This document shows positions 1,789 through 47,964 of a DNA stretch of 61,355 nucleotides, one piece after another. Location of the stretch: positions 1 through 61,355 of the IMG/VR virus record IMGVR_UViG_3300037180_000072, one strand, 5' to 3'. The first letter of the stretch is position 1. The number at the start of each line of letters is the position of its first letter. Origin of the DNA: a virus. Position numbers and translations under genes: made by a program. The notes under the pieces are model-generated. The model made no database searches, was not told where the DNA came from, and saw only the letters and a list, made by a program, of their open reading frames with translations.

Positions 1789-3876
1789 CTACTGTCCCCC
1801 GTATACACTACCGTCGCTCGTGTACCAAGTTTTTCCATCGTCGGTGTACAAAATTCCGTGTTCTTGTGTAGCACTGGCTTGTTTGAAGTCGCCGAGGTTC
1901 GCGTGAACTTTACTCGCGGCGCTTCCCGCAGGAGCGGGTGTCGATGCCGGGCTATCCTGAAGAATATCGCCCTCACGCTGTTGAACATATCCATTGGTGC
2001 CGATGCGTCCTTTAACTTGGGACTTGACATTCTCCCGAGATTGGTCAACAACGCCATCAAACTGGCCTTGGTTCAGATTGTAAATGAACGTGTCCGCTGA
2101 CGCCTGCCGAGCAGAATCGGTCGGAGTTCCGCCTCCAATGACCTTGGCGTAATCATCCGCCGCACCAAGCACTGCGGCTCGATAGGTCGCAAGTGCCGGA
2201 CTTCCGGCTTGGTACTTTAGCCAATCAGAATATGTATTGAGTGCGGGAATCTTCGTATTGCCAAGGGCATCGTGGGCCGCTTTCAATTGGTCAAGCATTC
2301 CACCAGGCTGGGCAAGGCTGCGAGCAGAACCGTAGAAAACTTGGTTCCCCGGCTCTTTCAACGCTTGCTCTCCGACAATTTCGTTGGTGGCGTTATAGCT
2401 AGGGTTAATTTTCTTAGCCGCGTCGATGGCTTCCGCAATAGCTCCCGGCGTAAATTTGTTGGTTTTCAAATCGGCCAGAGTAACATCTCCTGCCGCCAAA
2501 GCTTTTCCAATGTCGGCCACATTTCCCTGTTCGGCCAACACTTTAGCGTTTTCTGCGCTGTACATATCCGACAGATATGCGCGATGCGCACTTGTCGCCT
2601 GAGCCAATAAACGAGTCTCCCGGACTTTTTTGTCAGGATCGGTTTCCGTTGCAATCATGTTTTTCAGCATCGGAACCGCCGCCGAAGATTTCGCGCCTTC
2701 CATCTCACTCGGGTCGGTTTCCAACTTAAACAGCGGGTCCGTCGATTGCTGCTTCGCTACTAGGTCGGCTTTGGCCGTCAACTTCGCCACAGCATCCGCT
2801 GAAAGTGCAGCCTTGTTCTGCGCCAGGAGCACGGCTTGGCGTTTCTGTTGCGGCGTGGAGTTCGGGTCAGCCAATGTTTTTCGAGCCATAGCTACCACGG
2901 GGTCGTCGTTTCCTTTGGAGTCCTGTAATTCTTTTCCGGCAGCGTCTAAAATATATCCTTGGCGCATATTGAATATTGAAGGGGTGGCTGTGGCCGCAGC
3001 GGAAGGCGAAGCAGTCGCGGGTTGGGGCACCGCAGTCGCGGGTTGACCCGCCGCAGGCGCAGCCGTACCCAAAGGAGGTGCATTTGTCGTAGCTGGCGCA
3101 CCAGGAGTAGCCGTCGAATTTGACGCAGGCACACCAGATGGTGACGCGGGGGCTCCACTCGCGGGCGCAGCAGCGGGCGCAGCAGCGGGCGTGTTGGACT
3201 GACCCGTAAGTTGGTAAACCTGACCGCTGTTGGGATCGACACCCCAGCCCTGGGGTACTTGGCCGCGACTGTCGAACATATCTTGAGCTTGAGTTTGATT
3301 CGCCAGCGCGCCTGCAGTAAGTTGCTGTTGTTTACCCTGAACATCCAAATCCGATTGCGTCATCTGGTTGTGAATCGTAGACATGTACAAAATATTCTGG
3401 CCCACTTTTTCGTTTGTATCCGCAACCATCAAATCCTGTTGCAACTTTGCGTTCTTCTGCGCCTGCGCGGCCTCTTGAGCTTGAATTTTTTGCTGCTGCT
3501 GATTGGCATAATATTGCTGAACTTCTGGCGCGCCACCTTCGCGGCCATGAGAAGAAACAGAGGTGCCCGCAGCCGACAGGGCGACCCCAATTCCGGCTAT
3601 CATATTTAGCAAGCGAGAATGGGGTACCGTCGGAGGAACAATCGGAATTTTTGCGTCTTGCTGAACTTGAGAATATGCAGCTTGAGCGCGGCCCATACTG
3701 TCGCGGGCCGCTGCCTCCGCCGCATCCCCAGACGAAGATGAATTCGTGGGGGCAGCATTAACCGCGCCGGGTGCGTTCGACACCAACGGCACAGTGTTGG
3801 CAGACACAGGGGCGGGCGAAGACACCACGGGCAAGGAAGCGGGTGCTGGGGTCGGATTTGGTGTCGGATCAGCCAT
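1789..3876 (-). CDS. Large Ala/Pro-rich putative internal virion protein
   Basis: Protein of 695 residues. The N-terminal 70 residues are Pro/Ala/Ser-rich and disordered-looking. Residues of about 110-190 are Gln/Ala-rich and probably coiled coil (QQQQKIQAQEAAQAQ). A long Ala/Pro linker follows at about 220-300, then a helical C-terminal half. No catalytic motif is visible. It sits between two similar low-complexity genes in the tail operon. A structural or ejection role is inferred from its position. Confidence 0.4.
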   Translation of the reverse strand: MADPTPNPTPAPASLPVVSSPAPVSANTVPLVSNAPGAVNAAPTNSSSSGDAAEAAARDSMGRAQAAYSQVQQDAKIPIVPPTVPHSRLLNMIAGIGVALSAAGTSVSSHGREGGAPEVQQYYANQQQQKIQAQEAAQAQKNAKLQQDLMVADTNEKVGQNILYMSTIHNQMTQSDLDVQGKQQQLTAGALANQTQAQDMFDSRGQVPQGWGVDPNSGQVYQLTGQSNTPAAAPAAAPASGAPASPSGVPASNSTATPGAPATTNAPPLGTAAPAAGQPATAVPQPATASPSAAATATPSIFNMRQGYILDAAGKELQDSKGNDDPVVAMARKTLADPNSTPQQKRQAVLLAQNKAALSADAVAKLTAKADLVAKQQSTDPLFKLETDPSEMEGAKSSAAVPMLKNMIATETDPDKKVRETRLLAQATSAHRAYLSDMYSAENAKVLAEQGNVADIGKALAAGDVTLADLKTNKFTPGAIAEAIDAAKKINPSYNATNEIVGEQALKEPGNQVFYGSARSLAQPGGMLDQLKAAHDALGNTKIPALNTYSDWLKYQAGSPALATYRAAVLGAADDYAKVIGGGTPTDSARQASADTFIYNLNQGQFDGVVDQSRENVKSQVKGRIGTNGYVQQREGDILQDSPASTPAPAGSAASKVHANLGDFKQASATQEHGILYTDDGKTWYTSDGSVYGGQ

Positions 3877-11000: not shown

Positions 11001-11817
11001 ACTGATCCACCGCACTCGCCAAAGTAACTTGGCGCAGATAGGTCAACTCGATGCCGACGATGGTCGCGGTCGAGGGAATATTGAAATTGAAACTCTCCAA
11101 AAACAAATACGACCCGTAGCCAGGTACTGTTGCGATTTGAACGTACTCGTTAACCCATGGATTCGACGTACTTCCCGCCAAAGGTAAGTTTTCGTAATCC
11201 GTCGGCGAACTAAACGATCCGTTCGCTACGACAACGCCTGACAAAGACTCCACATTGCCATTTGGGTCCAGCAAAGAATCGCCGATACCATAGCTGGTGT
11301 ACTGTTGCCAGAAACCCATACCGGATGAAACCGGAGTCACTGTCGGCGCGGCCAAACCCCACGCACTCAAGTTGGTTCCATCGAATTTGTACAAGTCTGC
11401 GGAAGCGCCATCGGAATAGTAGGTCATGTTCCCGATGGTGGAAACGTAGCCCTGCGCGGTTGTGGTTTTGTTGAGAACGGTCGTGATTGAAGTGTCGGAG
11501 AAAATTGCCAAGCGCTGTGTAGTGTCAACCCAAGGGACTACGACATCGCTTAAAGTGCGCGTAGAATAAAATTGATTCACAATTTCCGCGTCGGGGAGAG
11601 GAATCGGGCAGAAGACGGAAAAGCCTGGGCGGCGTATCCATTCCAATTTGTCGGATAATTCGAACTGTAGCCCGTCAATGACGGGCTCCTTGAAACTGAC
11701 AACCTGAATTCCGATATTTTTGAACGGGGCAAAAAGAGGATTGCGATACGTGTACCAACCTGAAATAAAAAAACTTATTTCAAGAGAGGGCTCGCTTTGT
11801 GAGACACGTGTAGCCAT
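8095..11817 (-). CDS. Large tail protein, nozzle-like
   Basis: Protein of 1240 residues. Its ends carry beta-propeller-like sequence reminiscent of podovirus tail nozzles (T7 gp12 / P22 gp10 type): N-terminal EPVIDGLQFELSDKLEWIRRPGF and later RLWMIVGNYVYFDAGPD, ALVPTADGLGLVVWASDRTYEILGG. Several inserted beta-sandwich repeats in the middle contain FLNG(Q/E)..TV. Homology is judged by pattern only. It starts downstream of late motif 2. Confidence 0.5.
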   Translation of the reverse strand: MATRVSQSEPSLEISFFISGWYTYRNPLFAPFKNIGIQVVSFKEPVIDGLQFELSDKLEWIRRPGFSVFCPIPLPDAEIVNQFYSTRTLSDVVVPWVDTTQRLAIFSDTSITTVLNKTTTAQGYVSTIGNMTYYSDGASADLYKFDGTNLSAWGLAAPTVTPVSSGMGFWQQYTSYGIGDSLLDPNGNVESLSGVVVANGSFSSPTDYENLPLAGSTSNPWVNEYVQIATVPGYGSYLFLESFNFNIPSTATIVGIELTYLRQVTLASAVDQSIKLVIGGAVVGTDHASGAPWSETGYTSITYGGPTDLWGATPTPAQINANGATGFGVAISGNISAITGAHGGAIFVEGTTYGTNLPVVTVYYTLPSGVSAPGISGENEPIWPTTIGTDVADGGVVWTNYGPIETWYPTTYYPTPVVILDNNGFLQLGASASNVIDPWNSGVTYAAGQIVAYGGSYWTSVFNGSNTGIVPTSGYTVATLAGSVTTTVPYWVETQSPITTGSIAPVWNTTIGGETQDGDYTWTNIGQGTGLAFTGYSYVYGYRTIYGHLTTSSPISDNTGAILGPLNGAITSFSIASNIVTFNGNNNFLPGNVFTVSGLTVGTYLNEESFTVLSAVPSASFPLTSVAVSGSNVLTILAINKLVAGQKVTFSDVSVATFLNGQTVTVLPGGLSGTQFEANFTHATYGATADAGTVNVNGSFTANFTHANVSNTVDAGSAIPLISTVTGVGTGSPLCNASANITAVSVSANVVTIMASNNFQPGLWVTIDGLTSASFLNGQQFQVISVDQPIGTLNTYFQIYFEWPNYTQTADAGIATFNAIEIYRTSDGGGIYLFSGAATNPGVNAQWSYNDFVTDADLDILLVASLDHQNDPPPGAPGSITTPPGAGAFTAYWQGRLWMIVGNYVYFDAGPDCTNGVPEESWPPANRFQYASKPFALVPTADGLGLVVWASDRTYEILGGPETISFYSPDALSNFGILNSNAIFRDGSITGQFTTQKEYFELIGQEKQEIGERIADYLTDNFDPKRSYVTMHRDGLDVGAFISNGVDRIVRYGSNIGAWSVPAFPSFGAGALNSVETSDGVYSLMLGAPTGGTTSILGPLNPGTGASVAGSGTAWLNPSNITSGSATSYTTVTFGAAGSSQILRALNYAVSQIPATAAIQGVQVTVVGKQTAPSASLSLEITPTNAAAGAETHTFSFGTSNTTFVFGGPSDLWGMPWQSPAALLTTPISFDLTATFAGFA

Positions 11818-25829: not shown

Positions 25830-25862
25830 CGGCCATGTTAATTACCCCGGCCATGGTAAATA
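25830..25862. repeat. Two tandem 15-bp operator-like repeats
   Basis: CGGCCATGTTAATTA (25830-25844) and CGGCCATGGTAAATA (25848-25862) differ at two positions and are spaced 18 bases apart. They fall between the minus-strand -10 box and the endolysin ATG, where a repressor would block the lysis gene. The binding protein is unknown. Confidence 0.5.
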
Positions 25863-25887
25863 TCTCAAATTTCTCTTGACAAGTCAA
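25859..25887 (-). promoter_or_regulatory. Sigma70-like promoter for the endolysin operon
   Basis: On the minus strand: TTGACT (25882-25887), a 17-bp spacer, GATATT (25859-25864). It is back to back with the plus-strand promoter; the two -35 boxes form the inverted repeat TTGAC-AA-GTCAA. Confidence 0.5.
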
Positions 25888-25903
25888 CCCAGTTTGATAC
25901 CAT
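25876..25903 (+). promoter_or_regulatory. Sigma70-like promoter on the plus strand
   Basis: TTGACA (25876-25881), a 16-bp spacer, TACCAT (25898-25903), with TG one base before the -10 (extended -10). It is the best sigma70-type promoter seen on the plus strand and points into the structured region at 25908-26245. Confidence 0.65.
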
Positions 25904-25907
25904 GTGT

Positions 25908-26245
25908 TCGAGGCTGACACCTTAGTCCGGGTTGGATAGTGGTCCCGGAGTGAGCGCTAAATGGACCCGAGGCGGGCGCGCTCCATGGATGTGGGATCGT
26001 CACCCACCGGCCTCGACCTTTTGAGTTAGGGTTGGCGACTGATAATCGCCAAGGGGGCTAACAAGCTCTCTGCGGGTCTCGAAAAGATGCACTTGACTGT
26101 GCTAACCGCACCCTGAATTAGTCGCATCTGCGTAAACTGGTCTCATGGATCGAGGGCGCAGAATAAAGTCGGGCGACAAGCGCCAGTGGCTTCGTAATGG
26201 ACGACCGGGTAACGCCGCCTATCCTACGAAGACTAATCACTGAGA
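25908..26245 (+). ncRNA. Putative large structured non-coding RNA
   Basis: No conserved protein is read from the minus strand here, yet the plus strand folds into many perfect helices. TCGAGGC 25908-25914 pairs with 26010-26016 and encloses CCGGG/CCCGG (25927/25944), GAGCGC/GCGCTC (25952/25978) and GTGGG/CCCAC (25991/26003). GTTAG/CTAAC (26025/26058) encloses TTGGCGA/TCGCCAA (26032/26046). AGATGC/GCATCT is at 26085/26124, GGCGC/GCGCC at 26155/26180 and CTTCGTA/TACGAAG at 26190/26225. It begins a few bases after the plus-strand promoter. I recognise no RNA family. The 3' end is not defined by a terminator, and it could also be a structured leader for the short ORF at 26267. Confidence 0.6.
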
Positions 26246-26266
26246 AGCAGCCCGCAAACCTTCGAA

Positions 26267-26455
26267 ATGCCCAAGAAACCAAATCTCCCGCAGCCAGAAG
26301 AAAAACTTTGGTCCCAGCCCCACGTCTGTCGAATTTGCGGCGCAACCTGGGACTGCCACTACTCGCTCTGCTGGCTCCCTTACGAAACGACTTGCGTCGC
26401 GTGCCCCTGTGGCCCACTTGTCTGCGGGTACATAGAGCCTTTCGCGCTCACTTGA
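26267..26455 (+). CDS. Possible plus-strand small zinc-binding protein
   Basis: Protein of 62 residues starting MPKKPNLPQPEEKLW. It has seven or more Cys in zinc-ribbon-like spacing (HVCRICGATWDC, SLCW, CVACPCG, VCGY). The codons look protein-like, but no ribosome-binding site precedes the ATG. It ends by overlapping the convergent gene at 26448. If real, it would be the product of the plus-strand promoter, with the structured RNA as its leader. Confidence 0.35.
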   Translation: MPKKPNLPQPEEKLWSQPHVCRICGATWDCHYSLCWLPYETTCVACPCGPLVCGYIEPFALT

Positions 26456-47798: not shown

Positions 47799-47874
47799 TG
47801 GAGCCCGAAGATGGACTTGAACCACCGACCCGCTGTTTACAAAACAGCCGCTCTGCCAACTGAGCTATTCGGGC
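47799..47874 (-). tRNA. tRNA-Thr (anticodon UGU)
   Basis: A full cloverleaf on the minus strand, 76 nt including an encoded CCA. The acceptor GCCCGAA pairs with TTCGGGC, the D-arm has GGCAGAGC, the anticodon stem GCTGT/ACAGC holds loop TTTGTAA (anticodon TGT), and the T-arm reads GGTGG-TTCAAGT-CCATC. Confidence 0.93.
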
Positions 47875-47879
47875 AAAAT

Positions 47880-47964
47880 TGGTTGCGGAGGCCGAGAATC
47901 GAACTCAGCGTGCCAATTGGCGCCGGTTTATGAGACCGACAACCCTCCATGGGTAGTCTCCGCA
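47880..47964 (-). tRNA. tRNA with CAU anticodon and long variable arm
   Basis: 85 nt on the minus strand, 5 bases upstream of the tRNA-Thr. The acceptor TGCGGAG/CTCCGCA is followed by A and encoded CCA. The D-stem is ACCC/GGGT with a tiny loop ATGGA. The anticodon stem TCGGT/ACCGG holds loop CTCATAA (anticodon CAT). The T-arm GCTGAG-TTCGATT-CTCGGC can make six pairs. The variable region of about 14 nt contains the hairpin GCCAATTGGC, which is not normal for tRNA-Met or tRNA-Ile2. Confidence 0.8.

Follow-up and report, generated by a model that had tools for sequence, protein, structure and literature searches.

A conserved plus-strand RNA core, probably an undescribed family, in uncultivated tailed phages

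The IMG/VR virus record IMGVR_UViG_3300037180_000072, analysed over its full 61,355 nt (positions 1 to 61,355, hereafter the window), carries a 134-nt core that is a conserved plus-strand RNA structure, present in different genomic settings in at least five uncultivated viruses besides the window. Six members were identified: the window itself, L060, L064, L073, L076 and a copy in the related phage G022. As in other conserved structured RNA families, these distant sequences have a common secondary structure kept by compensatory changes. The core is probably an undescribed phage RNA family, and comparative evidence from sequence bears, with graded strength, on how it may act.

Table 1. Features of the RNA locus in the window
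Feature	Position	Strand	Basis
Divergent promoter TTGACT-N17-GATATT, facing the endolysin gene	25859..25887	-	Promoter scan; comparable boxes in relatives
Promoter of the plus-strand unit, TTGACA-N16-TACCAT	25876..25903	+	Promoter scan; kept in relatives
5' domain of the RNA, window-specific, 218 nt	25908..26125	+	ORF-free; no homologue with model R3
Core shared by the family (P1-P7), 134 nt	26126..26259	+	Models R1 and R2; double changes, six members
5' hairpin: P1 26127-26133/26156-26162, P2 26138-26143/26147-26152	26127..26162	+	Motif kept while closing stem covaries (five members)
Cysteine-rich, zinc-finger-like 62-aa protein, 3' of the RNA	26267..26455	+	Conserved in related phages; no family match

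A conserved plus-strand RNA core

A sequence-only reading of this locus had proposed a plus-strand structured RNA at 25876-26245 and had named covariation in homologues, beforehand, as a check. The structured region was borne out, but its conserved core forms the downstream part and runs 14 nt beyond the proposed end. Members were brought together by several routes: L060 has the core's 5' hairpin in common with the window; L064, from an otherwise dissimilar phage, was found in an IMG/VR pattern scan with 28 of 28 bases identical; and L073 and L076 came from a looser IMG/VR pattern scan. Independent folding of the window, L073 and L076 gave the same structure, and a covariance model built from these three (R1) found the previously unseen copy in G022 with an E value of 6e-11, whilst scoring the motif-found members L060 and L064 at 2e-7 and 1e-3, respectively. 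In the six-member alignment (A8), 29 of 39 pairs show double changes and 93.4% of pair cells are kept, with none of 500 shuffles as good and slid controls only 36–44% paired. As A8 was fitted to the covariance model, its pair counts lean towards that model; a model-free MAFFT alignment of three sequences already contains 13 double changes. The evidence for the family thus comprises six members, two of them close, with pairwise identities of 41–64% apart from the L073/L076 pair (87% identical). The strand proposed earlier also proved correct: the covarying consensus folds well on the plus strand only (-44.1 versus -25.9 kcal/mol on the minus strand), as its conserved G-U pairs require; 37 of 229 pair cells are G-U.

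From its 5' end, the core consists of P1 (7 bp), an internal loop AAAC/AGG, P2 (6 bp), a short A-rich linker and an interrupted long hairpin, P3-P7, capped in the window, L073 and L076 by a GUAAYG loop. It closes at its 3' end with AGCCCGCAAA, ten bases of which are identical in G022. The 5' hairpin holds a near-invariant motif, GUAAACUGG...AUCGAGGGC, kept by five members as the closing stem covaries. Written out by hand from the hairpin sequences, the P1 closing stems pair throughout: UCUGCGU/GCGCAGA in the window, UUCGGGU/GCUCGAA in L060, CCCGU/GCGGG in L064, CCCGCGU/GCGUGGG in L073 and CCUGGGU/GCUCAGG in L076. In the G022 copy, the interior of P1-P2 differs. The almost invariant P1-P2 hairpin has the look of a putative binding site. 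Sequence beside the core varies, with extra material on the 5' side in the window (perhaps also in G022) and on the 3' side in L060, L064, L073 and L076. The 3' elements of L073 and L076 include a small hairpin with paired changes, as judged by eye, a possible pseudoknot, and a GC-rich hairpin (GGGCGGC...GCCGCCC) followed by a U-rich tail. We also considered whether the domains are permuted in order between the window and L073/L076, but saw no sequence in common.

Structure arising by chance, in a decayed gene or a spacer, would fit an overall folding energy that is ordinary (z -1.35 to -1.45, about -1.4 on both strands), but it is hardly credible as a general explanation and is refuted for the core by covariation across six members and by a model that found an unseen sixth. 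With z unusual in neither strand, folding energy was rejected as evidence for an RNA and could not on its own have proved one. The many perfect nested helices noted from sequence were confirmed: Watson-Crick helices in 25908-26262 cover 70 bp, whereas 40 dinucleotide shuffles average 41 bp and never exceed 58. The suspected absence of a convincing minus-strand gene likewise held: nowhere in the 61 kb does a run free of open frames of at least 60 codons, on either strand, exceed that at 25957-26120 in length, and six-frame segments of the RNA region matched nothing in related phages or loci; a decayed gene was rejected on the latter ground.

The window locus: promoters, 5' domain and zinc ORF

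Nearly all long ORFs of the window read on the minus strand. The plus-strand promoter described earlier, with its extended -10, was upheld by comparison: it comprises TTGACA (25876-25881), a 16-nt spacer and a TG-extended TACCAT (25898-25903), and agrees with consensus at 10 of 12 positions. Of 11 related zinc loci, 10 have such a promoter at the same place and with the GTCAA motif in its spacer. In the window it overlaps the divergent promoter, and the two -35 boxes do form the inverted repeat TTGAC-AA-GTCAA that had been pointed out; minus-strand TTGACA boxes comparable to those of the divergent promoter are visible in relatives. The promoter scan returned three promoter-like sites against 0.3 expected. 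In relatives the promoter stands directly before the zinc ORF, whereas in the window phage an ORF-free stretch of about 355 nt separates the two. It is likely, from this arrangement, that the RNA is transcribed from the conserved promoter in the window and in L060, and that the same promoter serves the zinc-protein gene in relatives.

The 5' domain begins near the predicted transcript start with a closing helix that pairs UCGAGGC (25908-25914) with GCCUCGA (26011-26017). Its second half (26019-26125) folds better than all of 200 shuffles (z -3.3). No copy of the 218 nt was found in any other sequence searched, and R3, a single-sequence model of the second half, matched the window only and was absent from 19 other loci; the domain was consequently rejected as a separate RNA family. 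Unlike for the core, chance structure may account for this domain.

The protein encoded 3' of the RNA runs antisense to neighbouring genes, has eight conserved cysteines and is present in at least ten related phages; the versions of nine relatives are 47–69% identical to that of the window. It has no match in Pfam, PHROG or NCBIfam, and its predicted fold, which is fairly confident (pLDDT 82), has no significant PDB match. A structured RNA lies between promoter and zinc ORF in the window and L060 only. In one relative, L038, a small ORF (about 93 aa; 4296-4015, minus strand) lies in the corresponding gap, after the promoter and ahead of the zinc ORF, which suggests that different cargo is accepted there.

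Genomic settings and candidate roles

The RNA had been suggested to lead the zinc ORF, which is true by position in the window and L060 but not of the other four copies, all placed before unrelated genes; a gene-specific cis-acting leader would always be found upstream of homologous genes. Downstream elements comprise the zinc protein (window and L060), a 56-aa protein (G022), a 67-aa ORF (L064) and the GC-rich hairpin with its U-rich tail (L073 and L076). Control in cis, with the RNA serving as a 5' UTR that governs translation or stability of the zinc mRNA, for example by hiding or freeing its start codon, or as a binding target of the zinc protein, is possible but on balance unlikely. It would account for the arrangement in the window, where 7 nt separate the 3' end of the core from the zinc start codon and neither a clear ribosome-binding site nor a terminator was found between them, and for the repetition of the order promoter, RNA, zinc ORF in L060. 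Yet nine relatives have the same ORF behind the same promoter without the RNA, the G022 copy lies away from that phage's zinc gene, and no zinc homologue occurs near the RNA in G026-G028.

The reading we prefer, with moderate confidence, is that of an undescribed non-coding RNA family of uncultivated tailed phages that would act in trans, as a free-standing molecule, through a protein-binding hairpin. The GUAAACUGG...AUCGAGGGC hairpin would be offered, in the manner of a scaffold or decoy, to a host or phage protein; the zinc protein would merely share the RNA's transcript in two phages. The basis for action in trans is varied gene context: because downstream genes differ, nine zinc loci lack the RNA and the predicted L060 transcript starts at the base of P1, a portable trans-acting RNA is favoured over a zinc leader, though not strongly. 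Two observations count against a free-standing molecule. Firstly, since no terminator was found before the zinc ORF in the window, RNA and ORF may share one transcript. Secondly, the gene before the RNA in L064, L073 and L076 has its stop codon within P1. That gene in L064 (5992-6276, plus strand) encodes a small protein, likely with a ribosomal L7/L12 C-terminal domain just below the Pfam cut-off; in L073 and L076 an unrelated gene ends at exactly the same point of the hairpin.

The position of these stop codons, together with neighbours that are all on the same strand in the three phages, would also suit an operon-internal element for any neighbouring gene, be it an RNA processing site, a transcript stabiliser or an antitermination element, and such a general element would allow neighbours to vary as they do. 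We nonetheless consider it improbable: the RNA is promoter-proximal, without a preceding gene, in L060 and the window, and genomes usually have a single copy, where several might be expected of a general element. Less probable still is a mobile or self-processing RNA (an intron, a ribozyme or a transposon-derived guide RNA). The unrelated sites occupied in different phages, and TnpB-type proteins in two of them, could be taken in its favour, but there is no Rfam match to a ribozyme or intron, no reverse transcriptase was found, TnpB is missing from four of the records and, in the other two, lies far from the RNA, and no terminal repeats were seen at the window insertion.

Control of lysis by the RNA, suggested earlier, is not supported. 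The RNA adjoins the endolysin gene and is not opposite it, and in most relatives that have the zinc unit the diverging gene is another one; among the zinc loci examined, an endolysin is the diverging neighbour in the window phage only, and lies near that position in L040. The RNA sits at another place in the G022 genome, and in G026-G028 its settings are unrelated.

Novelty and relation to known phage RNAs

Across the six members, the core has no match in Rfam 15, whose families include tmRNA, RNase P, 6S, GOLLD, ROOL, HEARO and introns, either at gathering thresholds or, where these were run, at relaxed ones; only chance matches came up (E 4 or worse). This agrees with the earlier failure to match the RNA by eye to RNase P, tmRNA, 6S, GOLLD, ROOL or OMEGA RNAs. 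Searches by blastn found no family member, either with members as queries against 50,697 annotated phage genomes or with two queries against plasmids. Scans of 84,980 species genomes for exact patterns gave none and then one match, L066, taken as chance as its closing stem is missing; the viral pattern matches L067-L072, L074 and L075 were rejected for the same lack, and L077 on its E value of 0.28. A brief search of open-access papers found no such RNA. It is on these absences from Rfam, databases and literature that we call the core a new family among phage structured RNAs. The window phage's terminase is weakly similar to that of Tunturi_3, an acidobacterial phage and the best-scoring isolated phage by terminase, which has no homologue of the RNA. 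The similarity loosely suggests acidobacteria as the host group, and the label 'soil phages' derives from it, being not otherwise established for every member.

The closest points of comparison are GOLLD and ROOL, ornate RNAs of phages and prophages of about 600–800 nt, often near tRNA islands (PMC12286853). Like the RNA described here they are structured, phage-carried and without known function, and GOLLD similarly joins a universally conserved region to a less conserved one (PMC12286853). They differ in size, the core here being 134 nt, or about 350 nt with the 5' domain, and in their frequent tRNA neighbours: no tRNA genes were found in the examined flanks of the five other copies or near the RNA in the window, and the RNA has no Rfam match. 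Elsewhere in the window, tandem tRNA-Thr (tgt) and tRNA-Met (cat) genes lie at 47799-47963 on the minus strand. PAK_P4as15, a phage RNA described as acting in cis on an endolysin gene (review PMC12197685), resembles the window RNA in lying near such a gene, but the latter diverges from its endolysin without overlap and most copies are not beside one.

Omega RNAs of IscB/TnpB, retron RNAs, tmRNA, RNase P, 6S RNA and group I/II introns are likewise compact structured RNAs of phages or mobile elements, and differ in that the family here matches none of them in Rfam at gathering or relaxed thresholds. The TnpB zinc domain, the marker searched for, is absent from four of the six records and about 20–50 kb away in the other two; an omega RNA was rejected, with no adjacent TnpB in any record. 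The TnpB/Cas12f-type zinc domains lie far from the RNA at 11477-11677 in G027 and at 88332-88532 and 105914-106099 in G028. A retron RNA was rejected because no reverse transcriptase (RVT_1) matched in any of the six records. The L073 phage also encodes a tmRNA (2199-2552, plus strand) with the tag GATPLALAA.

To our knowledge, few phage-encoded structured RNAs have been described, and most of these are without known function. A more ambitious picture, which we regard as speculative and somewhat doubtful, is of a compact and portable RNA machine, whose 5' hairpin would capture a host factor of translation, transcription or defence, whose domains would be interchangeable, and which would pass between unrelated phages as an accessory gene consisting of RNA alone. 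The family is small, but it covaries strongly, keeps one motif almost unchanged (28 of 28 bases identical in unrelated phages) and occurs in several phage groups, and it offers a short and testable RNA. It also shows that RNA genes missed by both protein-based annotation and Rfam reside in the unannotated gaps of phage genomes.
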